A stretch of DNA of 64,000 nt, from the NCBI RefSeq assembly GCF_900115755.1, contig NZ_FOXQ01000013.1, forward strand, positions 1-64,000, in the 5' to 3' direction. Source of the DNA: Parafilimonas terrae. Its GTDB lineage: Bacteria > Bacteroidota > Bacteroidia > Chitinophagales > Chitinophagaceae. Numbering within the stretch: position 1 is the first letter of the stretch; the number at the start of each line of letters is the position of its first letter. A program made the position numbers and the translations under genes. This document shows positions 32,224-60,374 of this stretch, in pieces. Under the pieces are notes generated by a model. That model was not told the DNA's origin and made no database searches. It was given only the letters and a program-made list of their open reading frames with translations.

Positions 32224-32297
32224 GCCATCTTTCATCATTTATTCCATGAATACTACAACTTTATAAAGAGAAGATGAAAAATCTGCCTGGCTAATTA

Positions 32298-32407
32298 TAT
32301 TTAAATCGTTATTGAATATATCTGTTTCAGCACAGATTGCACAGTTGTGTGTGCAATCTATTTGACGCTCTTAATCATAAAGCAACAATTATTCTAAGTG
32401 ACTTACA
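32298..32407. repeat. Direct repeat copy 2 (~110 bp)
   Basis: This is the second copy of 29362-29470. Its inverted repeat GATTGCACA-N6-TGTGCAATC has nine-base arms, longer than in copy 1. It lies 75 bp after the SMP-30 gene and 150 bp before the SDR gene. The rest of the 334-bp gap (32224-32557) shows no other feature. Confidence 0.85.
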
Positions 32408-32557
32408 GCAAAAAAAGGATATTGAAAAAGCGGCTCTCTAAAAGCAATTAATTCTTTTTACCTGCCTGTTAATAAGCCGTTTTTTTCTTTACGCTTTCAA
32501 TTCATCTTGTGAAGGAATGAAGAAGATGTCAGAATTAAATTTTAAAAAGACAACATT

Positions 32558-33403: not shown

Positions 33404-33449
33404 CCGCACTTACCTGCTTTTTATCTAATAAAAAGCAAACTATTTTGAT

Positions 33450-34584
<1,135 letters not shown>

Positions 34585-43803: not shown

Positions 43804-45285
43804 TTATTCCCCAAGGTTCTTTACAAGTTCAGCCTTCCATTTTTCATAGCTTTTCTCGTAAAGCTTTTTACCGTTTGGCTCAACAAGCTTTACACATTTC
43901 ATATTCGTAAAAGCATCTTTAGGGCTTTCAAATATTTTAGCGCCAATGCCTGCGCCTAAAGCAGCGCCCACACTTCCATCATTATTGTATAATTCAACCG
44001 GCACATTCGTAATGTTTACAAAAGCATCTACAAATACATCGCTTAAAAACATATTGGCTTTGCCGGCCCGAATAACTTTCGGTTCAATATTATTCTCACG
44101 CATTATATCGAGCCCGTAACGAAATGCATAAGCAATGCCTTCCTGTGCAGCACGGTAAACATGTGCAGGCGTATGCTTATTTAAATCGATATTTATTATT
44201 GATGAACCAGGCAGTTTATTATTAAGCATTCGCTCAGCGCCATTACCAAAAGGAAAAACCAGTAAACCTTCGCTGCCTTGGGGAATGGCAGCAGCTTCTT
44301 CATTCAATTGAGAATATGTTTTATTGCTGCCCATACATTTCCTTATCCAGCTATTCATAATGCCCGTTCCATTTATGCAAAGCAATACACCTATCCGCTT
44401 GTTATCTTTTGTATAATTAAGATGGGCAAAACTGTTTACGCGGCTTTGTTTATCATATACCAAATCATCGGCAACAGTATAAATAACGCCCGAAGTGCCT
44501 GCGGTTGCAGCTACTTCGCCCGGCTCCATCACATTCAACGAAAGTGCATTGTTTAGCTGGTCGCCAGCCTTATAACTCACAGGAATGCCATGTTTTAAAC
44601 CAAGCTTACCGGCAACGTCTTCTTTTAAAAAACCATGGGTGCTGAAAACAGCTTTACAATCAGGGATGATATCATTCTTAAAACCGAAAAACTGCATTAC
44701 ATCTTTTGATATTTCCTCATGCTTAAAGTCCCAGAATATGCCTTCGGAAAGCGCAGATGGCGTGGTGGTGATATCACCCGTTAAGCGCATGGCAATAAAA
44801 TCACCGGGCAACATTATTTTGAATACCTGTTTAAATATTTCAGGTTCATTTTCTTTTAACCAGGCAAGTTTCGCCGCAGTAAAATTGCCGGGTGAGTTTA
44901 ACAGGCAGCTTAAACATTTTTCTTCGCCAATACTTTCAAATGCTTTTTCGCCGTAAGGCACAGCGCGGCTATCGCACCATATTATGCTGTTGCGTAGAGG
45001 AAGCTGCGCTTCGTTCACCGCAACAAGGCCGTGCATCTGGTATCCAATACCAATGGCAGCAATATCTTTCGGATCATACTTTCCTGAAACATTTGCCTGC
45101 ATTAAAGCCTGCTGAAAATATGCCCACCATGAATCGGGGTTTTGTTCGGCCCAGCCATTTTGAAGGCTTATGATCGGCGCTTCGGTTTCGGGATATTGCG
45201 CAGAAACAATGGCCTGCTGCGTTGCCGCATCCACTATAGAAATTTTAACCGATGAAGTTCCTATATCTATACCAAGCAAAAGCAT
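43804..45285 (-). CDS. xylB: Xylulokinase (FGGY carbohydrate kinase)
   Basis: The 493-residue protein fits xylulokinase: GIDIGTSSVKISIVD at the start, NGWAEQNPDSWW, GIGYQMHGLVAVNE, IIWCDSRA, KLAWLKENEPEIF, and the adenosine region TAGTSGVIYTVAD. It phosphorylates D-xylulose (or a related ketose) to the 5-phosphate for the pentose phosphate route. It is followed downstream by the remnant at 43661. It sits at the end of the sugar locus, separated from it by an opposite-strand hemerythrin gene. No xylose isomerase of the classic type is seen nearby. Confidence 0.9.
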   Translation of the reverse strand: MLLLGIDIGTSSVKISIVDAATQQAIVSAQYPETEAPIISLQNGWAEQNPDSWWAYFQQALMQANVSGKYDPKDIAAIGIGYQMHGLVAVNEAQLPLRNSIIWCDSRAVPYGEKAFESIGEEKCLSCLLNSPGNFTAAKLAWLKENEPEIFKQVFKIMLPGDFIAMRLTGDITTTPSALSEGIFWDFKHEEISKDVMQFFGFKNDIIPDCKAVFSTHGFLKEDVAGKLGLKHGIPVSYKAGDQLNNALSLNVMEPGEVAATAGTSGVIYTVADDLVYDKQSRVNSFAHLNYTKDNKRIGVLLCINGTGIMNSWIRKCMGSNKTYSQLNEEAAAIPQGSEGLLVFPFGNGAERMLNNKLPGSSIINIDLNKHTPAHVYRAAQEGIAYAFRYGLDIMRENNIEPKVIRAGKANMFLSDVFVDAFVNITNVPVELYNNDGSVGAALGAGIGAKIFESPKDAFTNMKCVKLVEPNGKKLYEKSYEKWKAELVKNLGE

Positions 45286-45504
45286 TTTTTAAAATTTTAG
45301 CAGGCGAAATTAATGATAGATAATGATTAATGCAACCGATTTAAATTTATGGTTTTTCAGAGATTTTGTAAGTTCGGGAATCTGCTGCAATTAAAACAGC
45401 TAATGCATATAGTTCTTGCATCGCATAAATAAATTGCATGACCAGTTTGCAATAACAAAAGAATGATCACACATAATAATACAACAATAAAAACCATTTG
45501 AGCA

Positions 45505-45993
45505 ATGCCTATTAAAAGAAACGAAAACCTTGTTCAGCTTTCAAGAGACCATCATGCCACATTATTGTCTTGCTGGAAGATAAGAACAGGTTTAAAACTG
45601 AACATTGACACGGCACGTATAAAAGCTTATGTGCAATATTTCTGGGAGGTACATATACACCCACATTTTATTGAAGAAGAAACAATTTTATTTGTGCCGG
45701 TAAAAGATGCGGCTGTACAAAAAGCATTGAATGAACATGCTGATATTAGTAAACAGGTTGAATCGATTATGGCCTCGCCAATTGTTCAGCCACAGCAACT
45801 GGCAACACTTGCCGACACGGTTGATAACCACGTGCGCTATGAAGAACGGGAACTGTTTCCGCATCTTGAAAATATATTAACGGAAGTGCAGCTAAAAGAA
45901 ATAGGTAGCCGGCTGCAGGCAACAGCCGGCACTGTTTGTAATGATGATTTTACAGATGAATTCTGGAAAGCCGGGCCACAGCAAAATAATTAA
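45505..45993 (+). CDS. Hemerythrin-like domain protein
   Basis: The 162-residue protein has the hemerythrin HHE iron-binding pattern: LSRDHHATLLSC, VHIHPHFIEEETILF and VDNHVRYEERELFPHLE. These four-helix proteins bind oxygen, NO or metal, and help with iron or nitrosative stress. It lies alone on the plus strand inside the sugar locus, between xylB and the first DUF1080 gene, and could have been inserted there. Confidence 0.85.
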   Translation: MPIKRNENLVQLSRDHHATLLSCWKIRTGLKLNIDTARIKAYVQYFWEVHIHPHFIEEETILFVPVKDAAVQKALNEHADISKQVESIMASPIVQPQQLATLADTVDNHVRYEERELFPHLENILTEVQLKEIGSRLQATAGTVCNDDFTDEFWKAGPQQNN

Positions 45994-46021
45994 TGCTGAA
46001 GTTATTTATACTTATTTTAAA

Positions 46022-46162
46022 CACATAGAAACATAGTAACTATTTAGGATGACGCATTTAGCATCAAGCAAGTGCAAAGCGGATGATAGTATTTTCATCT
46101 TAGATGAAAGTCTTCGTGTTGCTCTTTGCCCTTGTTAATGCTAAAGACTATGTGCCTATGTG
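46022..46162. repeat. Long inverted repeat with internal stems
   Basis: CACATAGAAACATAGT (46022-46037) and ACTATGTGCCTATGTG (46147-46162) match at 14 of 16 positions. Between them a further stem TTTCATCT/AGATGAAA is visible. It fills the gap between convergent hemerythrin and DUF1080 genes and shares the CACAnA style with the pairs at 8135 and 9819. Confidence 0.5.
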
Positions 46163-46207
46163 GTTTGTTTCAAAAGCCCTGTTCGCAGTATGAACCTTTT
46201 AAATTCC

Positions 46208-47002
46208 TTATTTCAGTTCTTTAATCTTAATATTTTTAAAAGAAACCTTCATGATATGCCCTGCATGCATTTGCAGTCCTATTAATCCTGATGCTTTGCG
46301 GTTGGCGGTATCATCGTCTGTAACATCGCACATTAATACATCATTAATATAATGCTGCAAATGATTGCCTTTAGCAACAATGCGGCAAGTGTTCCAGCCA
46401 GCATTTATTTTAGCTTTTAAAGAATCGGGGTTGCCCAACGAATCATTTATTATGGCAGGAGACCATACATTTCTTTTTGCCAGGTTACTAATTGAATCAG
46501 TTACCGGCGGCAGCGTTACTTTTTGCCCGCGGAATGCCACAATGCAGCGGGCCCTTTCTTCATAATTCTGCCCGGTGTAAGTATTGGCGCCATCAATATC
46601 CATTTGATAACCTCTTAACCCAAACGGAACACCTTCCACCTCTTCGCTCCTGTATTGAATACCGCTGTTGCCTTCAGCAGAAATTTCATATTCCGCTGTA
46701 AGCTCAAAATCTCCCGGTGTGCCATCTTTCCATATTAAAAACGTGTTCGCTTTTAAAGGCGTGGATTCAGGCGTTACCTGTCCAACAATAGCCCCGTCTT
46801 CCACATGCCACACAGCCGTATCGCCTTCCCAGCCATTTAAAGTGCTGCCATCAAATATGCTTACAAAACCTGTGGAGTCAGGTGAACCTTGTTCTGTAGC
46901 TTCTGTATTGCCGTTGGCAGAATTACAACCGCTAAAAACAAAAGCTCCTGTTACAATAGCAAAGCCGCAAAGGCCTGCGAGCTGTTTTATTTTTTTATTC
47001 AT
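46208..47002 (-). CDS. DUF1080 lipoprotein (3-keto-disaccharide hydrolase family), paralog 1
   Basis: The 264-residue protein has a lipoprotein signal ending FVFSGC (Cys26). It holds the DUF1080/3-keto-disac_hyd concanavalin-like domain: FVSIFDGSTLNGWEGDTAVWHVEDGAIVG, NTFLIWKDGTPGDFELTAEY, then NSGIQYRSEE and GYQMDIDGANTYTGQNYEERARCI. Members cleave or convert 3-keto-glycosides made by a dehydrogenase. It is the last enzyme of the locus, with a Gfo/Idh/MocA dehydrogenase 220 bp upstream. A second paralog lies at 48423. Confidence 0.9.
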   Translation of the reverse strand: MNKKIKQLAGLCGFAIVTGAFVFSGCNSANGNTEATEQGSPDSTGFVSIFDGSTLNGWEGDTAVWHVEDGAIVGQVTPESTPLKANTFLIWKDGTPGDFELTAEYEISAEGNSGIQYRSEEVEGVPFGLRGYQMDIDGANTYTGQNYEERARCIVAFRGQKVTLPPVTDSISNLAKRNVWSPAIINDSLGNPDSLKAKINAGWNTCRIVAKGNHLQHYINDVLMCDVTDDDTANRKASGLIGLQMHAGHIMKVSFKNIKIKELK

Positions 47003-47065
47003 GATAAAAATTATTGTTTAGATATTGTTTTATTGTTCCAATCAATGTTTCTTTTTATCTGTTCA

Positions 47066-47224
47066 AAGGTTTACGGGTTCGCTTGTTCACAAGTTTTTTC
47101 CAAGTTCCTATTTCCCCTTCAACTTATCAACTATTCAACCCAATCAACCGTTCAACCAATTCCCAATTACAAATTCTTAATTCCTCCCAATCAACCACTC
47201 AACTAATCAACCAATCAACTACTC
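47066..47224 (-). repeat. Composite intergenic repeat, copy 2 (R1)
   Basis: Read on the minus strand it shows GTTGATTGGTTGATTAGTTG units, GAATTTGTAATTGGGAATTGG, further GTTGATAAGTTGAA units and AACAAGCGAACCCGTAAACC. Block order and sequence match 5997-6112. It fills the gap between the dehydrogenase and DUF1080 paralog 1. Confidence 0.6.
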
Positions 47225-48368
47225 ACTCAATCTCCTTCCAGCTTCCAGAAGCGGCAGATTCAAGCACAGCTTCGCAAACCTGCTGCGTTTCAAAAGCATC
47301 ACGGAAAGTGGGAGAACAAGGTTCGCCTGTTTCCAAACTCTTCAGAAAATCTGCCGCCTGGTGAATAAATGAATGTTCATATCCAATGCCAAGCCCCGGC
47401 ACCCACCAATGATCCATATAAGGCTGATCGCCATCTGTTACATGAATGGAGCGCCAGCCGCGAACCCTTGATTCATCTGAATGATCAAAATATTCAAGAC
47501 GGTTGAGATCATGCAAATCCCATTTTATGGATGCATGTTCACCATTAATTTCAAATGTGTAAAGTGCTTTGTGCCCGCGTGCATAACGGGTGGATTCAAA
47601 CAATCCTAAAGAACCATTTGCAAAATGGCAATGAAATATGCAAGCATCATCAATACCTACTTTCTCAACTTTGCCGGTAAGCTGGTGCATGCGTTCTTTT
47701 ACAAAGGTTTCTGTAACGGCATTCACATCTTTAATGCTGCCGTTAAGCCATATTGCGGTATCAATACAATGCGCCAGCAAATCGCCGGTAACGCCGGAAC
47801 CGGCAACATTTGCATCCATGCGCCAAAGGCCTTCGCCGCCTTGAGGTAAGTCGGCACTGATGGTCCAGTCCTGCAGAAAATTAGCGCGGTAATGAAATAT
47901 CTTTCCCAGTTTCCCGGAATCTATAATTTGTTTTGCCAGGCTCACCGCAGGAATACGGCGGTAATTATACCATACTGTATTGGCCACTTTTGCTTTTTCT
48001 ACCGCATCAACCATTTTGCGGGCTTCTTCCACATTGCGGGCAAGCGGTTTTTCAGTAAGCACCATTTTGCCAGCCTGTGCCGCGGCAATGGCTATTTCAG
48101 CATGCGTATCGTTTGGCGTGCATATATCTATCGCGTCAATATCATCCCGCTCAATAAGTTTTTTCCAATCTGTTTCATAAGATTCATAATTCCACTGTTC
48201 GGCAAAAGCCTTTACCCTTTCTTCATTGCGGGCACATGCCGCTTTTAAAACCGGTATATATGCCAGTTCCGGAAAAAAGTTACGAATGCGGTTATAAGCA
48301 TTGGAATGCGTACGGCCCATAAATCCGCAGCCGATCAATCCTATCCTTAATTCTTTTTTATTTGCCAT
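47223..48368 (-). CDS. Gfo/Idh/MocA dehydrogenase of the sugar locus
   Basis: The 381-residue protein has the NAD(P) motif GLIGCGFMG (10-18), EKP (E106-K107-P108) and the catalytic-region His200/Asp203 in [11 protein letters not shown]. Length and the WYNYRRIP and [16 protein letters not shown] stretches fit the sugar-dehydrogenase branch of the family. No signal peptide is seen, so it acts in the cytoplasm. Between two DUF1080 genes it is the likely glycoside 3-dehydrogenase, or a 3-keto-sugar reductase, of the pathway. Confidence 0.9.
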
Positions 48369-48422
48369 ATTTTATAAAGATTAAAATGTCAAAAAAATCA
48401 GTTTATAATTATTAATATTTTT

Positions 48423-49232
48423 TTATTCAGATAACATCTTTATCATAAAATTTTTATACTCAACTTTCATTGGAGGGCCAACATGTACCTGTACACCCAG
48501 CAACCCGCTGAACGAACGATTGGCCGTATCATTATCTATTACTTCACTCATCAATACACCATTTACATAGTGCCATAAATGATTCCCTTTAGCTATAATA
48601 TGGCATTCATTCCAGCCATCATGAATATATTGAGTGAGCGAATCTTTATCTCCAAGAGATGATGGCTGCGAGGCGGTCCAGATGTTATTTACAGCTAATG
48701 AAGATATAGGTTTGCTAACAACAGGCAACGTTGCTTTTTGACCTCTGAAAGCAATAATGCAGCGGCCGCGCTCTTCATAATTTTGACCGGTATATTGGTT
48801 AGCGCCGTCTATATCTTCCTGGTAACCTCTTAAAGCATAAGGCACATCGGGCACTTCTGTGCTGCGATAATTAATACCACTGTTGCCACCTTTCGTGATG
48901 CGGTAATCCACTTTTAATTCAAAGTTTTTAGTTGTACCGCCGCGCCATATCAAAAATGTGTTCCGCTTTAAGATAGTTGATGGAGTTACTTCGCCTATTA
49001 TACAACCATTTTCAACTTTCCAGTAAGTGGAATCGCCCTGCCAGCCTTTTAATGTTTTCCCATCAAATATGGATAAATAGCCATCATTACTCCTTGCGTT
49101 TTTATTGACATGTGATTTAAATCCTGTCAAAACAAACAAACCCATACACATAGCACTGAAGGCAAATAACCTTAATTCTGATATGGGGCGATTATTCATC
49201 TTATTGAGTGTATTATTCTTTTTAAATATCAT
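48423..49232 (-). CDS. DUF1080 protein (3-keto-disaccharide hydrolase family), paralog 2
   Basis: The 269-residue protein has a hydrophobic signal/anchor (LRLFAFSAMCMGLFVLTGF, about 20-38) with no lipobox Cys, unlike paralog 1. It carries the same domain: LSIFDGKTLKGWQGDSTYWKVENG, NTFLIWRGGTTKNFELKVDY, NSGINYRSTE and QEDIDGANQYTGQNYEERGRCI. The alternative start at residue 12 (MNNRPISEL) may be the real one. It overlaps the TIM-barrel stop by four bases. It is therefore exported but not lipid-anchored, or anchored by its own N-terminus. Confidence 0.88.
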   Translation of the reverse strand: MIFKKNNTLNKMNNRPISELRLFAFSAMCMGLFVLTGFKSHVNKNARSNDGYLSIFDGKTLKGWQGDSTYWKVENGCIIGEVTPSTILKRNTFLIWRGGTTKNFELKVDYRITKGGNSGINYRSTEVPDVPYALRGYQEDIDGANQYTGQNYEERGRCIIAFRGQKATLPVVSKPISSLAVNNIWTASQPSSLGDKDSLTQYIHDGWNECHIIAKGNHLWHYVNGVLMSEVIDNDTANRSFSGLLGVQVHVGPPMKVEYKNFMIKMLSE

Positions 49233-50269
49233 TCACTCCATCCATGCGCTTTTTGTACAGACACCATAGCCGCCAATATATCATTCCAGGTTTGCTGCTG
49301 CATCATTTTCTCATTGGGAAACATGCAACCATCCCAGCAAATATGTTTGAATGCTTTGGTAAGATTTCCCGCATTATCGCGCAGCCAGTAACCGGCATAT
49401 TTCGCAATATCTAATTTGCCATTGGGATCATTCGGCAAACAATGTTTCCCTGTTTTATCATGCGAGCCGGTGCCATGTACCGTGCCATCATTTTGGGCAA
49501 CATGAAAATCAATTGTCCAGGGGCGCAAAGCATCAGTTAATTTCTTCAAACCAGCTTCCAGCGTTGCTTTATCATCCCAGTTAAAATCCTCTGGGAGTAT
49601 GCGGTCTTCGGGAGCGTTGTAGCCTAAAAGATATAAAAAGGTATGCGACATATCTGCCTGGAAACCGATGTTTGGACGATCAACCTGTTCCAGTGTATCA
49701 ATCATTTTTTTCCAGCTATGCATGCCGCCCCAGCATATTTCGCCTTCAGCAGCAAGCTTTTCACCATAATCAGCCGCTACATCGCAGGCTTCGCGAAAAG
49801 TTTGTGCAATAAGCGCTGTATTATTTACAGGGTCTTTTAACCATGAATCAGGATTTACAGCAGAGTCAATACGCACCACGCCATAAGGCCGGATGCCAAT
49901 TTCCCTGAGCAGTTTTCCAACATGACAGGACTTGCGCACCTGTTCAACAAAACGTTTTCTTTCCTCATCACTGCCCATTGCCGAACCACCGTCCGGTGGC
50001 CATATCGGCGCCACGAGGCTTCCGATTTTTAATCCGTAAGAAGCTACTTTATCGGCGAGTTTTTTAATAGCATCATCTGGCTGGTTAATGCCAAAATGCA
50101 CATCGAATAAACCAATATCAACACCATCGAATTTAACGCCGTCAACCTCAGCTTCGGCGGTAAATTTTAATAAAGTATCAAAAGGAATAACCGGTTCAGA
50201 CCCATCTCCTTTTCCTACAACGCCAGGCCAGGTGGCGTTGTGCAGTTTGGGATAATTATTTTCCTGCAT
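49229..50269 (-). CDS. TIM-barrel sugar isomerase/epimerase-like protein
   Basis: The 346-residue cytoplasmic protein is of the AP endonuclease 2/xylose isomerase-like TIM-barrel group: DGVKFDGVDIGLFDVHFG, LKIGSLVAPIWPPDGGSAMG, CWGGMHSWKKMIDTLEQV, PNIGFQADMSHTFLY and TIDFHVAQNDGTVHGTGSHDKTG, with Glu, Asp and His typical of the divalent-metal site. It overlaps DUF1080 paralog 2 by four bases. In this setting it may isomerise or epimerise a 3-keto-sugar or its hydrolysis product. Confidence 0.83.
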   Translation of the reverse strand: MQENNYPKLHNATWPGVVGKGDGSEPVIPFDTLLKFTAEAEVDGVKFDGVDIGLFDVHFGINQPDDAIKKLADKVASYGLKIGSLVAPIWPPDGGSAMGSDEERKRFVEQVRKSCHVGKLLREIGIRPYGVVRIDSAVNPDSWLKDPVNNTALIAQTFREACDVAADYGEKLAAEGEICWGGMHSWKKMIDTLEQVDRPNIGFQADMSHTFLYLLGYNAPEDRILPEDFNWDDKATLEAGLKKLTDALRPWTIDFHVAQNDGTVHGTGSHDKTGKHCLPNDPNGKLDIAKYAGYWLRDNAGNLTKAFKHICWDGCMFPNEKMMQQQTWNDILAAMVSVQKAHGWSE

Positions 50270-50347
50270 ATCGTTAAAAATTTAAGATGAATAATGTAGT
50301 TGTTATTAACTAAGAAAACACTCAATATTCAATAGCGGTAATCCCCG

Positions 50348-50370
50348 CCTGACCGAATCAGTCGGGCAGG
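50348..50370. repeat. CCTGACCG/CGGGCAGG stem-loop
   Basis: CCTGACCG (50348-50355) and CGGGCAGG (50363-50370) pair with one mismatch. The same motif in the other order lies at 62925-62942. It sits in the 209-bp gap between the cupin and TIM-barrel genes, amid AATATTGAAT-type low-complexity sequence. Confidence 0.45.
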
Positions 50371-50478
50371 AATATTCAATTGTAACTTCGCAAAATGAAT
50401 ATTGAATAATGGAGCATTGATTATTGAGTATTTCAAAGAACCTAACCTTAGCCATCAGCATTGGATGAATAAGATGTT

Positions 50479-51693
50479 TTATAATGATAAATCCGGGTTG
50501 CCCGGGCCAAAATGTTTAAGCATAACAATAGGATCGGCTGAAGACTGGTTTGTAATCTTCACGCCTTCTTTTGCAGCGGTTTCGCTCACAAAAAACTCAT
50601 CGTTTGTTAATTGCCCGTAGCGGATAAGCGCCGGTGTTTCTATATTCCACACACCCATTGTGCCATGCCCCTGCATCATAATTAAGCCATAGGCGGCGCT
50701 GTCTTTAATGGTAACGGTTGCACCAGGCAAAACGGTTAATTCTTTTGCGCTGAAAGCATCCGAGCGATAGCAAACCCATTTTTCACTATAGCCTTCTGCT
50801 TCCATTTCTTCAACAGTTCTTACCGACTTCGGCGCCATAAATCTTGTTTCGAGAATATCAGGGTTCGTATTCAAATCCCAGTCAATTATATCCATTAAAG
50901 CATCAAAATTGCCCTTATCTTTTTCGGGTACACCCTGCCATAAAAGCTCTTCGGGAATAATAGCTTCATTCACCAGCGACTGGTACATTGCAAATACATC
51001 GGATGCCTTTTGAGGCTCATACGTGCACATGCTTCCGGGAGCATGCAACATGCCCGGAGGAACATCCCAACCTGTTCCAGGTTCCAGGCGAAAAGCCTGC
51101 GAATAATTGGTGATTTTATTATCGCCTTTTGTAAAATTTTGCAGGCACTCTTTTATTTGTTCCTTAGTTGTGCCGGGCGCAATTCCGAAAAATGTATAAG
51201 GAAAATCGCCACCATGATTGTTAACCTGCGGTGGGAAATAATAGGCTTCCGGTTTACCCTTCTGTCCTATCAATGCAGCCTTTTCATCATTATGATGAAT
51301 ATGATGCGGCAACGGCCCCATGTTATCAAAGAACTTGGAATACATGGGCCAGCTTTGATATTCATTCCAGATGCGGTCGCCAATAAGTGCACCTTTTAAT
51401 TCGTCAACGGCATCTTTTAATAACAGCAGTTCTTCTTTACCGCCATTATTGAAAACAATGAAACTTAAGCCTTCATGTTCCCCGGTTAAAGGCCCGTTCT
51501 TTGCAGGTGTGGTAGAAGAAAACCAGCGCTCATCAATACCTCCTCTCACGCCGCCTAAAATATAATAATCATCGGGGTGAAGTTTTATTCTTCTGCCGGG
51601 CACGCAAAACGATCTTGGCACCCAGTTGGGCGCCAGTCTTAATATCCCCTTTCCCTGATCCAATGCTTGCTGAAATAAATTTGCTTTTTCCAT
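50479..51693 (-). CDS. Cupin-type mannose-6-phosphate-isomerase-like protein
   Basis: The 404-residue protein has an N-terminal part typical of this sugar-locus group (RLAPNWVPRSFCVPGRRIKLHPDD) and a cupin domain. HIHHNDEKA near residue 144 gives the metal histidines, and later come WDVPPGMLHAPGS and a second half with LTVLPGATVTIKDSAAYGLIMMQGHG. It resembles homologs annotated as mannose-6-phosphate isomerase but is not the classical enzyme. It probably isomerises or binds a free sugar. Confidence 0.7.
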   Translation of the reverse strand: MEKANLFQQALDQGKGILRLAPNWVPRSFCVPGRRIKLHPDDYYILGGVRGGIDERWFSSTTPAKNGPLTGEHEGLSFIVFNNGGKEELLLLKDAVDELKGALIGDRIWNEYQSWPMYSKFFDNMGPLPHHIHHNDEKAALIGQKGKPEAYYFPPQVNNHGGDFPYTFFGIAPGTTKEQIKECLQNFTKGDNKITNYSQAFRLEPGTGWDVPPGMLHAPGSMCTYEPQKASDVFAMYQSLVNEAIIPEELLWQGVPEKDKGNFDALMDIIDWDLNTNPDILETRFMAPKSVRTVEEMEAEGYSEKWVCYRSDAFSAKELTVLPGATVTIKDSAAYGLIMMQGHGTMGVWNIETPALIRYGQLTNDEFFVSETAAKEGVKITNQSSADPIVMLKHFGPGNPDLSL

Positions 51694-51740
51694 GGCTGAA
51701 TTTTAGAATCGTTTTAATTTTTATAAACTGGTGTAAAGTA

Positions 51741-52802: not shown

Positions 52803-52822
52803 TTAAACAGAATGCTTTTATA

Positions 52823-52894
52823 GTGAGTTGTGAATGGTGAGTTGTGAGTAAAATACAAGGTTCCTGTTCTCACAACTCACCACTGACAACTCGC
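52823..52894. repeat. Inverted GTGAGTTGTGA repeat (R2)
   Basis: GTGAGTTGTGAATGGTGAG units at 52823-52849 face CTCACAACTCACCACTGACA at 52869-52890, so the gap can fold on itself. It lies between the cytochrome and DUF4432 genes. Confidence 0.5.
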
Positions 52895-52913
52895 GATTAA
52901 TCATTAAATCTTC

Positions 52914-55604
52914 CTACTTTTTCTTGAACACAGGATTATTTTCATCACCACCTGATTTCAAATAAGCCATCAGGTCTTTCAATTCATCCGGGTTCAAATT
53001 ATTAATCAATCCCGGCAACATAACAGACTGATTAGACAGTTGTGTTCGCAATACATCTTTTTTAGGCACTTCTCTTATTTGCTGCGGCGCAAAAGGATTT
53101 TGAGAAATGTAGTAATTATTATCATCCTGGCGAACAAGCCTTCCCAATATTGTACTGCCATCTTTTAAAATAAGATTGGTGGCGGCATATTGATCTGATA
53201 CTTCTTTGTTTGGATCAATAATAGCTTCAAGAATGTCTTTATTGGAAAAGCGTGTGCCCAGTTGTGTTAAGTCAGGGCCAATAGATCCGCCTGTACCGCG
53301 AATGCTGTGGCAAGCCCCGCACAAGGAAGCGGCAAACATAGTTTTACCACGGTTAAAATCCCGAACGCCTGTGGAATCGCTTTGCACTATTTCCACTGCT
53401 TCATCCAGTTTCCACCTGCGGCCAGGGCCTTTTGGCCCACCGCCCGGAGGCACTACGCTCCTGCCATTATTGGCAAGCAAAGAATCACCGGAAATAGTAT
53501 TAAAGTGCGCCAGTTCATTTTTAGGAACATTTGCCAGGCCGTTCTTGCGGGCCTCATCAATATATCCTATATAACTGTTGCCGCCTTTCTTTTCAAAGAA
53601 ACCATAAAACAGCGTGAAATATTTTTCCCATAATTCCGGCGTCCAGCCGTTCTTTACCTTGCTTAAAACCGTTGCCAGGTAAATTTGCTGTGCCGGCGGC
53701 CTTTTAGCCAGCATATTGGCTACATCCATTCCATATTGAGGATTGCGGAGAATAAGGTCTGAAGATGCAGTGGCTGTTGCTGTAGTATCATCTACAGAGT
53801 TAGCTATCAAAGCCATGGTTTTGGGAACGATTTGCGGATCATCCACATTAGCCAGCACTTTGCAAAGCTGTTGATTAAGAATATTGTCTGTTGCCGGATA
53901 TTTCGGACCGAGGTAAGCAACAACCTTTTCTTTATATGCAGCACCGGGATCGCCCATTCTTGAAAGTGTTAACTCAAAAGCACGGAGCAAATCTATTTGC
54001 TGGCTGGTATTTAAGCGGGCATAATCAATTGCCAGCATTGCATCCAGCATTTGTGTTTCTGCACTTTTATCACCGGTACGCGCCAATGCAACCATAGCCT
54101 GCGTTAAAGCAACCGGGTCTTTCTCAGCCAAAGCCTTGGCCTGCCATTGCTGAACGGGCAGATGTTCAACAGCAATACGTGCAGCGTAGCGAATGCCACG
54201 ATCACTGTTATTAAGATAAGGCCAGGCCACATCAAGCGTTGAAGCATCTGTTTTTTCCTGGAAAGCTTCAAGTTTTCTTCTTATTTCACGGGCCTTGGCA
54301 GCATCGGAAGATTCGTCAACTTTTAAAGGCTCTGTTTTTAAATCATTTTTACCATAATAAACACGGTAAACATCAGAGTTTATCCTGCGGCCGCCTGTAA
54401 GAAAATACAAAGCGCCATCAGGGCCAATTTCACCATCTGTGAGCGGTAAGGGCGAGCCTGAAATAAATTCTTCAGCCTTTCCTTTATAAGTTGAACCTTC
54501 GGGTTCCAGGGCTATATGATAAATAATGCCATAACTCCAGTCAAATGCAAATAATCCCCTGCGGTATTTTTCGGGGAAACGGGTATTCATCCCGCTCATA
54601 ACATTGGTGGGCGAACCAGGGCCAATATTCAAAATAGCGGGAACATTATCAGGATAAGCCGGAGACCATTTGCCATTGTTTTCGCGGTAGCCAAATTCCG
54701 AACCGCTGGTTACATGGCAAATACGTGTGGGCCTGTACCATGGCAGCCCCATATCCCACTCCATATCGGAGTCATAGGTGAACAATTCGCCGTCTTCGTT
54801 AAAAGCTATATCAAAGGGATTGCGGAAGCCTGAACTGAAAAGCTCCCAGCGTGACCCAACTGAATCTGTTTTGGCAATCCAGCCGCCAGGTGGCTGGCGG
54901 TCGTTGCCAAACCCGTTTGGATCGAGCAGTAAAGGCAATAAGTTGTCATTCTTCCAGGTTTTGGGAAGATAATAATTGTCCATTTCAGGCAGGTCGGTAA
55001 AGTTGCCTGCTATTACATACAAAGATTTTTTATCGGGCGATAAGATGATGCTATGCGGGCCATGTTCGCCATTGCCGTATAAACGTTTCATCATAGTAAT
55101 CTTGTCAAATTCATCATCGCCGTTAGTATCCTGCAGGCGGTATAATCCACTCGGCCTGGTAACGCTGTCTTTTTGGCCTTCATCGTTTACTACCACATAC
55201 AAGCTGTTGTATGCCCATAACAGGCCATGCGCCAATCCCATTTTTATACGGGCATGAGAAGTATCTCCAGGCACATTAATTTCCAGCCTGTCAACTTTCA
55301 TTTTATTAGTGTTGGTATCTGCACCAATGGCCGGCACAGTAATGCGGTAGAGATAGCCGTATTGATCGCAGGCAATGATGCGTCCCTTATCATCAAACGT
55401 CATTGCCACCCACGAGCCTTCATTGTTATCTGAAGGATTGTACAAACGCTCTGCATGAAAGCCTTCAGGAATTTTCAACTTGGCTAATTTGGGATCTGAA
55501 CTTTCCTGGTGCGATTCAGTTTGGTTACAGCCCGTTGTTACCAAAAAAATTAATCCAAAAACTGCGGGAAAAAGTCGTACGAAAAAATTGTTCTTTTTGT
55601 TCAT
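52914..55604 (-). CDS. PVC-type cytochrome c lipoprotein with sugar-dehydrogenase-like propeller
   Basis: The 896-residue protein has a lipoprotein signal ending VTTGC (Cys26). It then has a glucose/sorbosone dehydrogenase-like beta-propeller (about 45-430: RIIACDQYGYLYR, GLYRLQDTNGDDEFDKIT, GFRNPFDIAFNEDGELFTYDSDMEWD), a helical HEAT-like middle, and a cytochrome c domain near the C-terminus. The haem site is C762-G-A-C765-H766, followed by GPDLTQLGTRF. Such PVC-type proteins are thought to pass electrons from sugar oxidation. It lies in the sugar locus directly after SusD, so it may oxidise sugar at the outer face or serve as acceptor. Confidence 0.88.
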   Translation of the reverse strand: MNKKNNFFVRLFPAVFGLIFLVTTGCNQTESHQESSDPKLAKLKIPEGFHAERLYNPSDNNEGSWVAMTFDDKGRIIACDQYGYLYRITVPAIGADTNTNKMKVDRLEINVPGDTSHARIKMGLAHGLLWAYNSLYVVVNDEGQKDSVTRPSGLYRLQDTNGDDEFDKITMMKRLYGNGEHGPHSIILSPDKKSLYVIAGNFTDLPEMDNYYLPKTWKNDNLLPLLLDPNGFGNDRQPPGGWIAKTDSVGSRWELFSSGFRNPFDIAFNEDGELFTYDSDMEWDMGLPWYRPTRICHVTSGSEFGYRENNGKWSPAYPDNVPAILNIGPGSPTNVMSGMNTRFPEKYRRGLFAFDWSYGIIYHIALEPEGSTYKGKAEEFISGSPLPLTDGEIGPDGALYFLTGGRRINSDVYRVYYGKNDLKTEPLKVDESSDAAKAREIRRKLEAFQEKTDASTLDVAWPYLNNSDRGIRYAARIAVEHLPVQQWQAKALAEKDPVALTQAMVALARTGDKSAETQMLDAMLAIDYARLNTSQQIDLLRAFELTLSRMGDPGAAYKEKVVAYLGPKYPATDNILNQQLCKVLANVDDPQIVPKTMALIANSVDDTTATATASSDLILRNPQYGMDVANMLAKRPPAQQIYLATVLSKVKNGWTPELWEKYFTLFYGFFEKKGGNSYIGYIDEARKNGLANVPKNELAHFNTISGDSLLANNGRSVVPPGGGPKGPGRRWKLDEAVEIVQSDSTGVRDFNRGKTMFAASLCGACHSIRGTGGSIGPDLTQLGTRFSNKDILEAIIDPNKEVSDQYAATNLILKDGSTILGRLVRQDDNNYYISQNPFAPQQIREVPKKDVLRTQLSNQSVMLPGLINNLNPDELKDLMAYLKSGGDENNPVFKKK

Positions 55605-55718
55605 GTAATAAATTTTCTACATCATTGAAAAAAAAATTTAAAGCCGGTAACTATTATCGTTAGATTATATGTTAGCGGCTTTAAAACTATTTATTTATGC
55701 TTTATCTATTCATAAAAT

Positions 55719-57230
55719 TTAAAAATAAGGAGTTAAGGCCGCTTCTTCAGCAGGCAACGGATAAACTGTATCCAATACAGTAAATGCATTGCTTGGCGGT
55801 TTAGCACCTGAAGGATAATAATAATCCAGCGGGTTGCCCACAACCCTTTGCCCGTATGCTGTTATTACATCTTTCATACGGCCTGTTCTTACCAGGTCGA
55901 ACCAGCGTTTATTTTCAAATGCAAGCTCAACTCTTCTTTCATTGAATATGGCATCACGCATATCGGATTGTGATACTGCTGTTGTTGCTTTTAAACCTGC
56001 ACGGGCACGTACCATGTTGAGGTAAGTTGCCGCTTCTGCAGGTTTGTTTCCTTCATTTAATGCTTCGGCTAAAAATAGTAATACTTCTGCATAACGGTAA
56101 ACCGGCCAGTCAGTTCCTGTATTGCCCTGCAGTGCATGCGTTTTTGCATATTTTTTTATGTAAGGATAAACTTTATTGTCGCGCAATGATGTGCTCAGTG
56201 TTATGTACGCTATAGAAGCGTCCTCTCTTTTATCGCCTTCTTCGTAGGCAGCAATAATATCCGGCGTAGGAATATTATTACCTTCTTCTGAAAGCGGTTG
56301 CGGGTTAGAAACATGCGTAATGGTTTCTACTTCTTCAGCCAGCATAGGGCGTGGCAGAAATGCATACATAAAGTTTCCGTTATATCCGTCCGAGCCTTCT
56401 TTAAACTGCACTTCAAAAACTGACTCAATATTATTTTTATTGGAAGATGAATTTGAAAATGCATCGTTATAATCATCCATCAATTTATACTCACCACTTT
56501 GTACAATCGTTTTTAATAAACCTTCTGCGGAAGCCCAGTCTTTAAGCTCGATATAAACATTTGCGAGTAAAGTTGCGGCAGCGCCTGAAGTGGCCCGGCC
56601 TGCTTCCTGCTTGGATTTAACGGGCAGCAGTGTTACTGCTTCGCTTGCATCTTTTTTAATCTGGTCGTAAATAGAATCAACTGAAGATAAAGGCAAAGCT
56701 GCTTCTTCCCTGTTGGTAACCGGCGTTAAATGAAGCGGCACTTTACCAAATAAACGTACCAGTTCAAAATAAGCGTAAGCCCTTAAATATAAAGCCTGCC
56801 CTTTAAGATTACTTTTGGAGGCTGCATCAAAATCAACTCCATCTATTGAAGCAAGGATCTGGTTTGTACGGGAAATTATCTGGTATTCCTGGCGGTACAA
56901 ATCACGCACTCTTGTATTGGTGGTTATACCATCTGAAGTAGGCACTGCAAAATCTGCTACGTTCTCTGTGTTATCCACTGCACCGAATAAAGTATTGCGG
57001 GCATAATAAGTGTTATCTGAATGCATTTCTTCCAACACCCATGCATTATTGTTTGTGATGGCACGCAATGGCACATAGGCAGCATTTACAGCCTGTTCAA
57101 AATCTGATTCTGTTTTGAAAAATGTAGCCGAACTTAATGAAGTCTCGGGCACCACATCCAGGAATTTTTTACAACTGCCAAACATTATTACCGTACCGAG
57201 CAATAATATTGAATACATTTTATTTTTCAT
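55719..57230 (-). CDS. SusD/RagB nutrient-binding outer-membrane lipoprotein
   Basis: The 503-residue protein has a lipoprotein signal ending MFGSC (Cys20) and the SusD start CKKFLDVVPETSLSSATFFKTESDFEQAVNAAY. Then come TPR-type helices (ALYLRAYAYFELVRLFGKVPL) and the C-terminal part with NERRVELAFENKRWFDLVRTG. It forms the lid of the SusC channel and binds the glycan. It lies 42 bp downstream of the susC-like gene and 115 bp ahead of the cytochrome. Confidence 0.94.
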   Translation of the reverse strand: MKNKMYSILLLGTVIMFGSCKKFLDVVPETSLSSATFFKTESDFEQAVNAAYVPLRAITNNNAWVLEEMHSDNTYYARNTLFGAVDNTENVADFAVPTSDGITTNTRVRDLYRQEYQIISRTNQILASIDGVDFDAASKSNLKGQALYLRAYAYFELVRLFGKVPLHLTPVTNREEAALPLSSVDSIYDQIKKDASEAVTLLPVKSKQEAGRATSGAAATLLANVYIELKDWASAEGLLKTIVQSGEYKLMDDYNDAFSNSSSNKNNIESVFEVQFKEGSDGYNGNFMYAFLPRPMLAEEVETITHVSNPQPLSEEGNNIPTPDIIAAYEEGDKREDASIAYITLSTSLRDNKVYPYIKKYAKTHALQGNTGTDWPVYRYAEVLLFLAEALNEGNKPAEAATYLNMVRARAGLKATTAVSQSDMRDAIFNERRVELAFENKRWFDLVRTGRMKDVITAYGQRVVGNPLDYYYPSGAKPPSNAFTVLDTVYPLPAEEAALTPYF

Positions 57231-57272
57231 CTTGATAACATTAAAATTGAAAAGATTGTTCTGTAAAAGCTG

Positions 57273-60200
57273 TTAGAAGTTTACATTAACACCTAAAGTA
57301 TAAGTACGCGGAATAGGGAAACTTGACAAGTCAATGCCCTGGCTTAAATTATCAGTGGTGAAACTGGTTTCGGGATTAGGCCCGCCCCAATAATTTGTAA
57401 ATACATATACCTGCTGAACAGAAGCATATAGCCTTGCCGATTTAATAGATTTGCTTTTAAACCCAACAGTATAACCGAGTGTAATATTTTTAATGGTAAA
57501 GAAAGATGCATTGCCTACAAACTGGCTGTTTGGCCAATCTCTTTCCACACCGGTAACATTACCGCCGCCAACAGTAGTTCCAAAAAATCCATCGCCCGGA
57601 TTATCTTCAGAACGCCAGCGGTCTTTTACCCTTTCCACCATATTGAATACACCATCAAGATTAGCAAGGCTATATAAATGGCGCATATATAACTGGTTGC
57701 CATAAGAGCCTGATGCTACAACTGAAAAATCAAAGTTGCGATAGTTGATTGTATTGGTGATACCATAAATAAACTTAGGAAAAGGTGAACCGATAATGGT
57801 ACGGTCATCCTGGTCACCACCGTAAGTAATCACGCCATCGCCGTTTACATCTTTTAGTTTAATACTTCCAACAGTAGAACGTCCGGGAATAACAGGAGAA
57901 TTATCAAGGTCTTTCTGGTTTTCATAATGCCCTATTTTTTGAAGGCCGTAAAACACACCGAATGGATGACCAACTTCCGTTATATTGAATGAGCCATAAA
58001 CACGATCAATACCATCAGCGAGTTCCAGCACTTTGTTCCTGTTGAAAGAAATATTGGCATTGGTAGTCCATTGAAATTTACCTACTGTATTTCTTGTAGT
58101 AAGAGAAAACTCATGGCCCCAGAATTTTATTTCACCAATATTATCATTAAAATTACCAAAGCCTGATTCCTGCGGTACCTGCACACTATACAAAAGATTG
58201 GTTGTATGTTTTAAATAATAATCATAGGTAAACTGTATCCTGTCTTTAAAAAAGCCCAGGTCAATACCGGCATCATATGCTTTGGTAGTTTCCCATCCAA
58301 GATTGCCATTGGCAAGCGATGTAACTGCAGCACCGGTAGCAACATTATCACCAAAAACAGCATTTACTGTATTGTTCACCAAAGCATACTGCGTGTAGTT
58401 ACCAATATTATTGTTGCCGATTACACCATAGCTGGCGCGGATTTTTGCGAATGATATTGGCCTGATGTTGCTAAAGAAATCTTCATCAGACATAACCCAG
58501 CCTGCAGACACAGAAGGGAATGTACCCCAGCGGTTGTTGCTGCCGAAACGTGAAGAACCATCACTGCGAATGGCTGCAGTAAGCAGGTACCTGCCTTTGT
58601 AATTATACGTCAACCTTGAAAGAAATGAAGATAGTGTCCACTCCTGCATATCATTGTAAGTATTATTGCTACCCCTGGAAATATTTACAGCACTTTGAAT
58701 AGTGCTAATCCGGTCATCAGGATAAGTATCAGCACGAATGAAAGTTCTGGCATAATTGTACTTCTGGTTGGTAAACCCTGCGAGTAATTCAAAATGATGA
58801 TCGTTAAAATCTCTTGTATAAGTAGCAAGATTTTCGTTCAGCCAGGTTACTTCATCCTGGTCATATCTTCTTGATACTGCCGTTGTGGGAATAGGCACAT
58901 TAATCGCATAAGTTGCAGTTGACGGGTTAAAGTAAAAATATTTTGTTCCGATATATTGCACATTCATGCTTGATTTTAATACAAGCCCTTTTATAGGTTC
59001 ATACTGTGCATATGCATTGCTGAGAAGGTTGATATAATTTGTTTCATCTGTTATTTCGCTGGCGGCACGCACCCAGTTTGGATAAGCATAAATATTACCG
59101 GTGCTTGCAGGAAACTGGTTGAATTTTGTTAACTCGCCGTTTTCATCATAAATAGGCATAACCGGCCATGTATGCAAGGCATCGAAAAGCAAACCTGTAC
59201 CACGGTCACCATCAGTTTGCGGCTGATTATCGTAGATATAAGAAGGAGCAAGATCAAAGCCTATTTTCACTTTGTCTGAAATGTTATAATCCAAATTCAT
59301 TCTTAAAGAATACCGGCGGTATTTTGTATTCAATACCACGCCTTCCTGGTTAAACACACCAGCTACCACAGCCGCATTGAGCTTATCATTCCTTGTAGCG
59401 ATGGTAACATTATAACTTTGAATTGGCGCCTTCTGAAGTAAAGCTCCATACCAGTCGTTGTTCTTACCCTGGTAGATAGAAGGGTTTTGAAATTCTTCGG
59501 GTACCGGCTGGCCTTCATCTTCGTAGTATTCTTTTTTAAATTGTGCAAACTCCACAGCATCCATCATTTTTATGCGGCCATGTTTCGGCACTTCCTGCAT
59601 GCCTACATAAGCATTAACATTAATGCTTGTTTGTCCAAGCTTTGCCGATTTTGTTGTAATGAGCACAACGCCATTGGCAGCGCGGGAACCATACAAAGAA
59701 GTAGATGCAGCATCTTTTAAAATGGAGATACTTTCTATTTCATCCGGGTTAAGCGAACCTATATTACCTACAATTGGAAAACCATCTACCACATACAAAG
59801 GTTCGCTGCCTGCAGAAACAGATAACTGTCCACGTATTCTTACAGACATGCCTTTACCCGGCTGTCCTGTATTCTGATTAATCTGCACACCTGCAAGCTT
59901 GCCCTGCAGCTTTTGTGCAATCTGCGATACAGGCAGGTCCTGCAGTTTTCCCATATCTACTGTTTGTACAGCACCGGTTACATCCTTTTTTCTTTGTGTA
60001 CCGTAACCAACTACTATCACCTGGTCAAGTTGATTATTATTGAGTGCTAACTTTAAATCAATAGCATTCTGATTACCCACATAAACCGTTTGGGGTAAAT
60101 AACCAAGAGATGTAATAATAAGAGAATCTGCATTGTTAACCTGCAGGCTAAAACGCCCCTGCACATCACTTACTGTACCTCGTGTGCTTCCCTTTATTGT

Positions 60201-60374
60201 AATAGAAGCATTGGGAACAGGCTGGCCGGTGGATGCATCGGTTAGTTTACCATTAATTGATCTTTGTTGGGCAAGGCATGGTATAGTTGCCATCAATGTT
60301 ATTAGTGTAACAACACCAGGCAATATGCGACGAAGCAGTCTTTTAAAATAAAAAAAGTGCATAGCAGCAATCAT
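57273..60374 (-). CDS. SusC/RagA TonB-dependent outer-membrane transporter
   Basis: The 1033-residue protein has a signal peptide (end near CLAQQ). A carboxypeptidase-regulatory-like domain follows (about 38-115, SINGKLTDASTGQPVPNASITIKG), then a TonB plug (VVVGYGTQRKKDVTGAVQTVD) with LYVVDGFPI and SRAANGVVLITTK, and a 22-strand barrel to the C-terminus ending in Phe. It imports glycans across the outer membrane with SusD. No N-terminal anti-sigma signalling extension is visible and no sigma/anti-sigma pair is adjacent, so regulation is from elsewhere. Confidence 0.95.
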   Translation of the reverse strand: MIAAMHFFYFKRLLRRILPGVVTLITLMATIPCLAQQRSINGKLTDASTGQPVPNASITIKGSTRGTVSDVQGRFSLQVNNADSLIITSLGYLPQTVYVGNQNAIDLKLALNNNQLDQVIVVGYGTQRKKDVTGAVQTVDMGKLQDLPVSQIAQKLQGKLAGVQINQNTGQPGKGMSVRIRGQLSVSAGSEPLYVVDGFPIVGNIGSLNPDEIESISILKDAASTSLYGSRAANGVVLITTKSAKLGQTSINVNAYVGMQEVPKHGRIKMMDAVEFAQFKKEYYEDEGQPVPEEFQNPSIYQGKNNDWYGALLQKAPIQSYNVTIATRNDKLNAAVVAGVFNQEGVVLNTKYRRYSLRMNLDYNISDKVKIGFDLAPSYIYDNQPQTDGDRGTGLLFDALHTWPVMPIYDENGELTKFNQFPASTGNIYAYPNWVRAASEITDETNYINLLSNAYAQYEPIKGLVLKSSMNVQYIGTKYFYFNPSTATYAINVPIPTTAVSRRYDQDEVTWLNENLATYTRDFNDHHFELLAGFTNQKYNYARTFIRADTYPDDRISTIQSAVNISRGSNNTYNDMQEWTLSSFLSRLTYNYKGRYLLTAAIRSDGSSRFGSNNRWGTFPSVSAGWVMSDEDFFSNIRPISFAKIRASYGVIGNNNIGNYTQYALVNNTVNAVFGDNVATGAAVTSLANGNLGWETTKAYDAGIDLGFFKDRIQFTYDYYLKHTTNLLYSVQVPQESGFGNFNDNIGEIKFWGHEFSLTTRNTVGKFQWTTNANISFNRNKVLELADGIDRVYGSFNITEVGHPFGVFYGLQKIGHYENQKDLDNSPVIPGRSTVGSIKLKDVNGDGVITYGGDQDDRTIIGSPFPKFIYGITNTINYRNFDFSVVASGSYGNQLYMRHLYSLANLDGVFNMVERVKDRWRSEDNPGDGFFGTTVGGGNVTGVERDWPNSQFVGNASFFTIKNITLGYTVGFKSKSIKSARLYASVQQVYVFTNYWGGPNPETSFTTDNLSQGIDLSSFPIPRTYTLGVNVNF

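Follow-up and report, generated by a model that had tools for sequence, protein, structure and literature searches.

We analyzed a 64,000-nucleotide stretch of the Parafilimonas terrae genome (the window) and focused on a run of nine genes, all on the minus strand (46208–60374), that appears to form a sugar-use locus without a glycoside hydrolase (GH). In the direction of reading, the run encodes a SusC-type TonB-dependent outer-membrane transporter (57273–60374; TIGR04056 818.8 bits, cut-off 368); a SusD-type surface lipoprotein (55719–57230; PF07980 and PF14322, with a lipobox by simple pattern); an 896-residue cytochrome c/propeller lipoprotein (52914–55604; PF00034, and TIGR02603 at 100.6 bits, cut-off 68); a DUF4432 protein resembling aldose 1-epimerases (51741–52802; PF14486 318.6 bits, PDB entry 3ty1 E 2.9e-21); a 404-residue orphan cupin (50479–51693), which by predicted fold and Foldseek is a candidate keto-sugar isomerase; a xylose-isomerase-like TIM barrel (49229–50269; PF01261 49.8 bits), a candidate keto-sugar epimerase, eliminase, or hydratase; a first DUF1080 protein, probably exported (48423–49232; PF06439 117.1 bits, hydrophobic N-terminal segment); a Gfo/Idh/MocA dehydrogenase (Gfo, 47223–48368; PF01408 100.8 bits); and a second DUF1080 copy, a lipoprotein (46208–47002; PF06439 138.7 bits, lipobox). 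SusC and SusD are adjacent and both exceed their family cut-offs (TIGR04056 and the SusD domains). Every gene that an initial annotation of this DNA had named is in place, and, the cupin apart, Pfam and NCBIfam searches gave the same families. The intergenic gaps from SusC to the second DUF1080 gene are 42, 114, 111, 47, 209, −4, 54, and 220 bases, the negative value being a 4-base overlap of the first DUF1080 start with the TIM barrel stop. These gaps are compatible with an operon and putative co-transcription; a promoter/terminator scan (21 terminator-like sites versus 17.4 ± 4.1 in shuffles) was not informative.

A scan with the cupin, taking one genome per species, returned 304 relatives, and the best 80, all at least 80% identical to the window cupin, were retained. 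Loci were used when the cupin was flanked by at least 6 kb on each side (56 of 80); the other 24, with less than 6 kb on one side, were left out. ORFs (open reading frames) in these loci are simple longest-ORF calls with unrefined starts, grouped into families by blastp clustering at 33% identity and 60% length. The DUF4432, cupin, TIM barrel, and Gfo genes (the quartet) occurred together in 56/56 loci, always collinear and on a single strand, a figure that speaks for close orthologs. Around the quartet we found DUF1080 in 52 loci, the cytochrome protein in 48, SusD in 35, and SusC in 33. Optional partners were a sugar ATP-binding cassette (ABC) transporter (ATPase in 22, binding protein in 21, permease in 19), an FG-GAP protein (21), a ketose-3-epimerase-like TIM barrel (16; NF051856 166 bits, cut-off 300), an IolE-like TIM barrel (13), an alpha/beta hydrolase (13), and, more rarely, ThuA (10), a glucuronyl-esterase-like protein (10), and a DUF7133 protein (9). 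Genera among the best 80 relatives include Segetibacter, Chitinophaga, Dyadobacter, Pontibacter, Sphingobacterium, Zobellia, and Maribacter, which we take to span several Bacteroidota orders. The initial annotation had suggested a search for the same gene order in other Bacteroidota, and the collinear quartet of these close loci shows the core set in many of them.

Consistent with a linked set, the cupin and the TIM barrel matched an identical 13 of 147 genomes of the family, the window's own included; two other genomes of the window's genus had a match to neither protein in this 147-genome search. In the phylum, the cupin matched 20 of 395 genomes, again counting the window's own. Pairwise protein distances of the gene families correlated with one another (r 0.63–0.86, a value reached in 0/999 permutations), as calculated from 66 loci with all four quartet genes and from 34 to 56 loci for pairs with other genes. 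This correlation shows joint inheritance and no more, and part of it reflects shared host ancestry. Given the collinear quartet in 56/56 loci and the occurrence of cupin and TIM barrel matches in exactly the same family genomes, we conclude that the gene linkage exceeds chance and that the gene module is well supported.

The nine-gene run is bounded by a hemerythrin HHE gene on the opposite strand (45505–45993, plus; PF01814 35.2 bits), a nonmember that cuts off an FGGY kinase gene (43804–45285, minus; PF00370/PF02782). The initial annotation had placed this kinase, as a xylulokinase, in the locus and in its pathway; the nine minus-strand genes hold as members, and we rejected the kinase. Besides lying behind the opposite-strand gene, it scored below the xylulokinase model (TIGR01312, 300.8 versus 380.25 bits), and blastp at 1e-10 found an FGGY homolog in none of the 90 fetched related loci (L025–L114), some of which are short or duplicate records (e.g., L059, L084, and L109 match the G139, G098, and G064 contigs). 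The two top-scoring FGGY genes elsewhere in the genome (on C32 and C44) resemble glycerol kinases by eye, judged from the first residues of each protein and, in the case of C32, also from its neighbors.

Scans with Pfam and NCBIfam found no GH, polysaccharide lyase, or carbohydrate esterase domain in the nine locus proteins, which upholds the claim that the locus lacks such enzymes. In the window as a whole, the scan covered 30 of 89 ORFs of at least 100 amino acids, namely the nine locus proteins, the kinase, and 20 others; the remaining 59 often overlap and are probably spurious. A GH hidden close by had been named as a threat to the initial annotation, and the only GH among these 30 proteins was a GH25 lysozyme (40365–41150, minus), 5 kb from the locus, which probably acts on peptidoglycan and is unrelated to the locus. 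About 36 kb away (8249–9796) is an esterase-like protein of the GDSL/BD-FAE kind. In related loci, GH2-, GH3-, GH78-, GH92-, GH95-, and GH106-like neighbors were recognized by eye from their motifs, each in one or two genomes; a conserved GH partner was rejected, with at most five members per cluster among the 75 rows of neighbors listed.

Both DUF1080 proteins exceed the cut-off (26.8 bits) of PF06439, the 3-keto-disaccharide hydrolase family, and they are 56% identical to each other by blastp. We compared the likely compartments of the locus proteins across the related loci using simple patterns, not SignalP, with ORFs under the length limit dropped. An N-terminal hydrophobic segment was found in 57/60 DUF1080 proteins and 65/67 cytochrome proteins; within the quartet, it was found in 0/90 cupins, 0/80 TIM barrels, 2/77 DUF4432 proteins, and 8/78 Gfo proteins. 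The Gfo proteins start with the Rossmann fold and carry no Tat motif (0/78), and we read the segment in the eight as the first Rossmann strand. These patterns give moderate support to DUF1080 and the cytochrome protein being exported and the quartet being cytosolic. An exported DUF1080 and a nonexported Gfo would mean that the partner of DUF1080 should be the cytochrome protein and that Gfo should work on cytosolic material. Elsewhere in the genome, which has 16 DUF1080 matches, one 489-amino-acid ORF carries two in tandem (C24:117890–119167; L004, L007), and a further stretch (L169:9238–14044) again groups DUF1080 with cytochromes: next to glycerol-kinase-like genes stand two DUF1080 genes accompanied, as judged by eye, by genes for a TIM barrel and two small cytochromes of the c type.

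These compartments bear on the scheme first proposed for the locus, in which Gfo would supply a 3-keto-glycoside for cleavage by DUF1080 within one compartment, with the xylulokinase taking the product. The sugar-use locus, the DUF1080 pair, and Gfo all stand; the order from Gfo to DUF1080 is doubtful because DUF1080 and the cytochrome protein look exported and the quartet does not. DUF1080 and Gfo are indeed neighbors, and the Bacteroides thetaiotaomicron BT2156–BT2160 cluster likewise contains genes of the two kinds (PMC9007349, PMC11501099, PMC11300592). However, the simple signal tests put the two proteins in opposite compartments, the glycoside 3-dehydrogenase BT2158 of that cluster is periplasmic (PMC11300592) and the window Gfo reached 46.7 bits where that family's cut-off is 750, and the kinase is neither conserved nor on the near side of the opposite-strand gene. 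We consider the scheme in its literal form very improbable.

The best candidate for a periplasmic oxidase, judged by its predicted fold, is the cytochrome protein, to which the initial annotation had given no role. Its AlphaFold model (mean predicted local distance difference test (pLDDT) 81) consists of an N-terminal beta-propeller, helical repeats, and a C-terminal cytochrome c domain (CxxCH). The 13 best Foldseek hits of the propeller were sugar/glucose dehydrogenases, several of them named as pyrroloquinoline quinone (PQQ) enzymes, or AA12 proteins, headed by 2ism (E 2.6e-12) and then 1qbi, 1c9u, and 3das. Aligned by hhalign with four GSDH-type proteins (seven sequences had been prepared, and four are in the alignment), the propeller gave E 2.3e-8; H181 and R261-N262, which are invariant in 32 sequences, fell on the GSDH His and Arg-Asn. 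In GSDH, these are the catalytic His and the cofactor Arg-Asn. PF07995 was not among the Pfam matches of the propeller, nor is the propeller at any of the six PF07995 places in the genome. The protein also resembles PVC-type heme-binding proteins (TIGR02603/TIGR02604) in having a cytochrome domain over the cut-off at the C terminus and a propeller upstream; it differs in that the N-terminal model stayed below its cut-off (69.3 versus 122.2 bits). The predicted fold is nearest to that of a quinoprotein sugar dehydrogenase; a matching cofactor and activity would be hypothetical. About 14 to 17 kb past the window end on the same contig (L171:14506–17736, minus), a 1076-amino-acid protein with PF07995 (GSDH) at 29.5 bits is perhaps a second propeller-type oxidase candidate.

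On the cytosolic side, the best NCBIfam match of Gfo was levoglucosan dehydrogenase LgdA (NF052479), at 351.4 bits and short of the cut-off of 650. The best PDB relatives were the uncharacterized 4h3v (E 7e-94) and then 6a3f (E 2.2e-83) and 6a3i, both named levoglucosan dehydrogenase in PMC10066097. In a profile alignment, Gfo shares the LQDW, WR, and GSG-GD-H motifs with levoglucosan dehydrogenase, and the Gfo family of the locus has a four-residue insertion ahead of WR. It falls outside the BT_2158 and BT_2159 families (NF058561 46.7 bits, cut-off 750; NF058563 44.5 bits, cut-off 650). The initial annotation had supposed that Gfo could act at C3, and its nearest characterized relative, levoglucosan dehydrogenase, is a C3 dehydrogenase, which makes such a reaction plausible. 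LgdA reduces 3-keto-levoglucosan faster than it oxidizes levoglucosan (PMC7676230).

The partners of Gfo are less easily placed. The PF01261 match covers about half of the TIM barrel, profile searches found no PDB relative at E ≤ 0.01, the NCBIfam match was weak (E 0.012), and a search of plasmids gave no match; identity with the 3-keto-guloside 4-epimerase YcjR of Escherichia coli was rejected (hhalign E 0.42 over 33 columns). The DUF4432 gene of the locus is the only DUF4432 match in the genome.

Elimination and hydration in the levoglucosan pathway are the work of PF01261 enzymes, oxidation and reduction that of Gfo enzymes (PMC7676230, PMC10066097), and an Agrobacterium protein that carries the annotation of a sugar phosphate isomerase acts as a 3-keto-O-glycoside eliminase (PMC10628242). 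The quartet could run a comparable route wholly in the cytosol: a small glycoside or anhydrosugar would be imported intact and oxidized at C3 by Gfo with NAD+, elimination and hydration would fall to the TIM barrel, the cupin and DUF4432 would rearrange the product, and DUF1080 and the cytochrome protein would do a separate outer job, such as trimming of a larger glycan or by-product oxidation. This agrees with the nearness of Gfo to LgdA, with the quartet being the only set kept in all 56 loci, with the eliminating and hydrating PF01261 proteins and the Agrobacterium eliminase just cited, and with the sugar carriers of related loci. It agrees less well with the LgdA score being under the cut-off, with the TIM barrel having neither a PDB profile match nor likeness to YcjR, and with the absence from the window locus of a second, LgdC-like dehydrogenase; in addition, DUF1080 (52/56) and the cytochrome protein (48/56) are rather constant for a side role. 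We regard this route as possible but somewhat unlikely.

The cupin is the least familiar member of the quartet. Pfam and NCBIfam searches stayed empty for it at a threshold as loose as E ≤ 10, as did phmmer against PDB sequences at E ≤ 1, and its profile gave 12 weak PDB matches (E 0.11–0.77), eight of them to mannose-6-phosphate isomerase; assignment to a known family was rejected on these grounds. The sequence is very constant, with a mean column identity of 83% across 36 sequences, and the AlphaFold model is moderate (mean pLDDT 66.6, below 50 in the putative metal-ligand segments), probably because the 36 input rows are too uniform. With this model, the six best Foldseek hits were (phospho)mannose isomerases, at E 1.3e-6 to 7.5e-6 and low TM-scores of 0.33 to 0.39, which supports the isomerase-like character given to the cupin in the initial annotation. 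By hhalign, the cupin segment PLPHHIHHN aligned with Gln-Val-His in E. coli ManA (E 9e-5, 74 columns, probability 59%), so that H131 and H133 fall on it; these two, K147, E149, and H217 do not vary among 14 sequences that reach down to 34% identity. We take these residues to correspond to the zinc and lysine residues of ManA, with roles assigned by analogy; only H131 and H133 are aligned. Class I phosphomannose isomerase is the nearest fold by Foldseek with this moderate model and the partner in the 74-column alignment; the empty Pfam search and the low TM-scores set the cupin apart from ManA. The predicted fold makes the cupin a candidate metal-dependent aldose/ketose-type isomerase of the class I phosphomannose-isomerase-like kind. 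Among the homologs, a single in-frame stop was seen in the match of one cupin (G053) and in those of two TIM barrels (G059 and G142), where a sequence end, an error, or decay could be the reason.

More distant cupins have different neighbors. One at 49% identity (L135) lies on a 3.7-kb contig, where its neighbors are related to the binding protein of the ABC transporter and to the TIM barrel of the ketose-3-epimerase-like type. Eight cupins at 33 to 38% identity (L136–L143) had no other quartet genes in the stretches examined; six of the eight stand with aldo-keto-reductase-like, flavodoxin-like, and ABC ATPase genes (several named by eye, on the strength of their first residues and weak matches) and four with an FGGY kinase, possibly a second unexplained type of sugar locus around a distant cupin subfamily. 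On an Arthrobacter conjugative plasmid (L134:3944–16158), a cupin homolog annotated as hypothetical (34% identity) ends a run of sugar genes comprising a sugar ABC transporter and dihydroxyacetone kinase, ribose-5-phosphate isomerase, and triosephosphate isomerase family genes, which we recognize as presumably an erythritol/erythrulose-type set. From their gene content, these distant neighborhoods appear to share sugar isomerization as a common thread.

Such neighborhoods leave room for a rare- or isomeric-sugar set without 3-keto chemistry, in which DUF1080 would be a plain glycan hydrolase and the quartet would interconvert aldose, ketose, and polyol. The aldose-ketose isomerases nearest to the cupin in fold would fit, as would the FGGY kinase (4/8) and the aldo-keto-reductase-like gene (6/8, by eye) beside the L136–L143 cupins, the sugar-kinase and isomerase genes beside the plasmid cupin, the ketose-3-epimerase-like TIM barrels in 16 of the 56 loci, and a DUF1080 protein cited as an endo-xanthanase/lichenase (PMC9007349). 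On the other hand, Gfo is nearest to a C3 dehydrogenase, known 3-keto systems likewise pair DUF1080 and an oxidoreductase (PMC9007349), and no FGGY kinase was found near close orthologs. We consider this explanation unlikely.

Our preferred reading is a two-limb, GH-free sugar-use operon, with oxidation and cleavage in the periplasm followed by conversion of the keto sugar in the cytosol, to which we assign a tentative probability of roughly 40%. A small glycoside would be taken up via SusC/SusD, and the cytochrome-fused propeller lipoprotein would oxidize one sugar carbon, likely C3, in the periplasm, with the electrons passing to its heme and then to the respiratory chain. The exported DUF1080 protein would cleave the glycoside so activated, and the keto sugar would be imported by an inner-membrane carrier, which in relatives could be the ABC transporter or, by eye, one of the major facilitator superfamily. 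In the cytosol, DUF4432 would change the anomer, the cupin would act as a metal-dependent keto-sugar isomerase, and the TIM barrel would serve as an epimerase, eliminase, or hydratase; Gfo, probably as an NADH-dependent reductase, would together with the rest of the quartet yield an ordinary sugar. In favor of this reading are the collinear quartet and its frequent partners in the 56 loci, the identical 13 genomes of cupin and TIM barrel, the correlated protein distances, the split in export signals, the fold and alignment of the propeller, the nearness of Gfo to LgdA with its faster reduction, and the sugar ABC transporter of many relatives; the levoglucosan pathway and the Agrobacterium eliminase described above lend supporting chemistry. 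The sequences show the genes, their order and conservation, the predicted folds, and which proteins carry simple export signals, whereas we infer the substrate, each of the reactions, the cofactor, oxidation at C3, and the direction in which Gfo works. A more specific version, in which the pathway is coupled to respiration, the quinoprotein-like propeller-cytochrome, at the surface or in the periplasm, makes keto-glycosides for DUF1080, and the orphan cupin isomerizes the keto sugar in the cytosol, is less probable than the general one, and we would call it unlikely to hold in every part. We know of no described enzyme for cytosolic keto-sugar isomerization by a phosphomannose-isomerase-like cupin.

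Several observations weigh against the two-limb operon. For the oxidase, Foldseek hits from rank 14 onward included propellers without oxidase activity, among them HHIP, strictosidine synthase, lactonases, and sialidases; single-sequence comparisons of the propeller with GSDH proteins were not significant (E 0.013–0.038); and before the last blade, LPLTDG replaces the Arg-rich GSDH segment (RIRDV in YliI), which we take to supply the PQQ ligands, making PQQ binding doubtful. A PqqC search gave no match, and its controls gave none either. In 8 of the 56 loci, the stretch examined held no cytochrome gene of this cluster. For the compartments, a strict lipobox was present in only 23/67 cytochrome proteins and 28/60 DUF1080 proteins, and the same pattern also fired in 14/78 Gfo proteins, falsely, we think. 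For import, the genome itself had no CUT2-type permease (0 matches, where 12/14 controls matched). The quartet is not invariant either: one of the ten same-family loci fetched (L025) lacks DUF4432 in its 19.9 kb, and around a cupin homolog of 76% identity (L146) the quartet is clustered but rearranged. Finally, the DUF1080 protein THTE_1561 is cited as an endo-xanthanase/lichenase (PMC9007349), an activity that needs no keto substrate, and DUF1080 genes of one planctomycete were up-regulated on xanthan (PMC5673643).

Elsewhere in the window, gluconolactonase-like (SGL), short-chain dehydrogenase/reductase, and aldo/keto reductase genes stand in a row (31171–34584, plus) beside an AraC regulator gene (29523–30419), possibly a second sugar-oxidation set.

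Many environmental Bacteroidota keep the core set of the locus, which implies a sugar-use function invisible to GH-based annotation. The locus also offers an orphan enzyme family, the cupin, of very constant sequence, and a candidate role for cytochrome-fused propeller lipoproteins. In the open-licence literature (titles and abstract openings), we found no description of this gene combination, of the orphan cupin, or of the cytochrome-fused oxidase candidate. The parts are nevertheless of known kinds, and three described systems come close. With the levoglucosan pathway (LgdA–LgdB1–LgdB2–LgdC; PMC7676230, PMC10066097), the locus shares a Gfo nearest to LgdA, a PF01261 partner, and a sugar carrier in relatives; it differs in the sub-cut-off Gfo and in adding the cupin, DUF4432, DUF1080, the cytochrome protein, and SusCD, of which the cupin and DUF1080 go unmentioned in the main text of PMC10066097. 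The locus also has one Gfo and no LgdC, a difference that is not strict, as LgdC occurs in 151 of 265 LgdA neighborhoods (PMC10066097).

With the disaccharide 3-keto system BT2156–BT2160 (PMC11300592, PMC11501099, PMC9007349), the locus has in common DUF1080 and a Gfo-type glycoside dehydrogenase in a member of the Bacteroidota. In contrast to that system, its Gfo has no export signal and is outside the BT_2158/BT_2159 families, the candidate oxidase is the cytochrome lipoprotein, and the cupin and DUF4432 are added. Caulobacter LacABC resembles the two-limb reading in its order of events, a C3 oxidation in the periplasm after which an exported DUF1080 protein is proposed to act there, and in having sugar epimerase and reductase genes nearby (PMC9007349); unlike it, the nine genes of our locus include no other known dehydrogenase domain, and the oxidase candidate is a propeller-cytochrome c fusion. 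We class the locus as a probable variant of oxidative, GH-free glycoside use, in which the gene module is solid and the chemistry hypothetical. It would extend oxidative deglycosylation, in a way that can be tested, past what is described for Bacteroides and Caulobacter.

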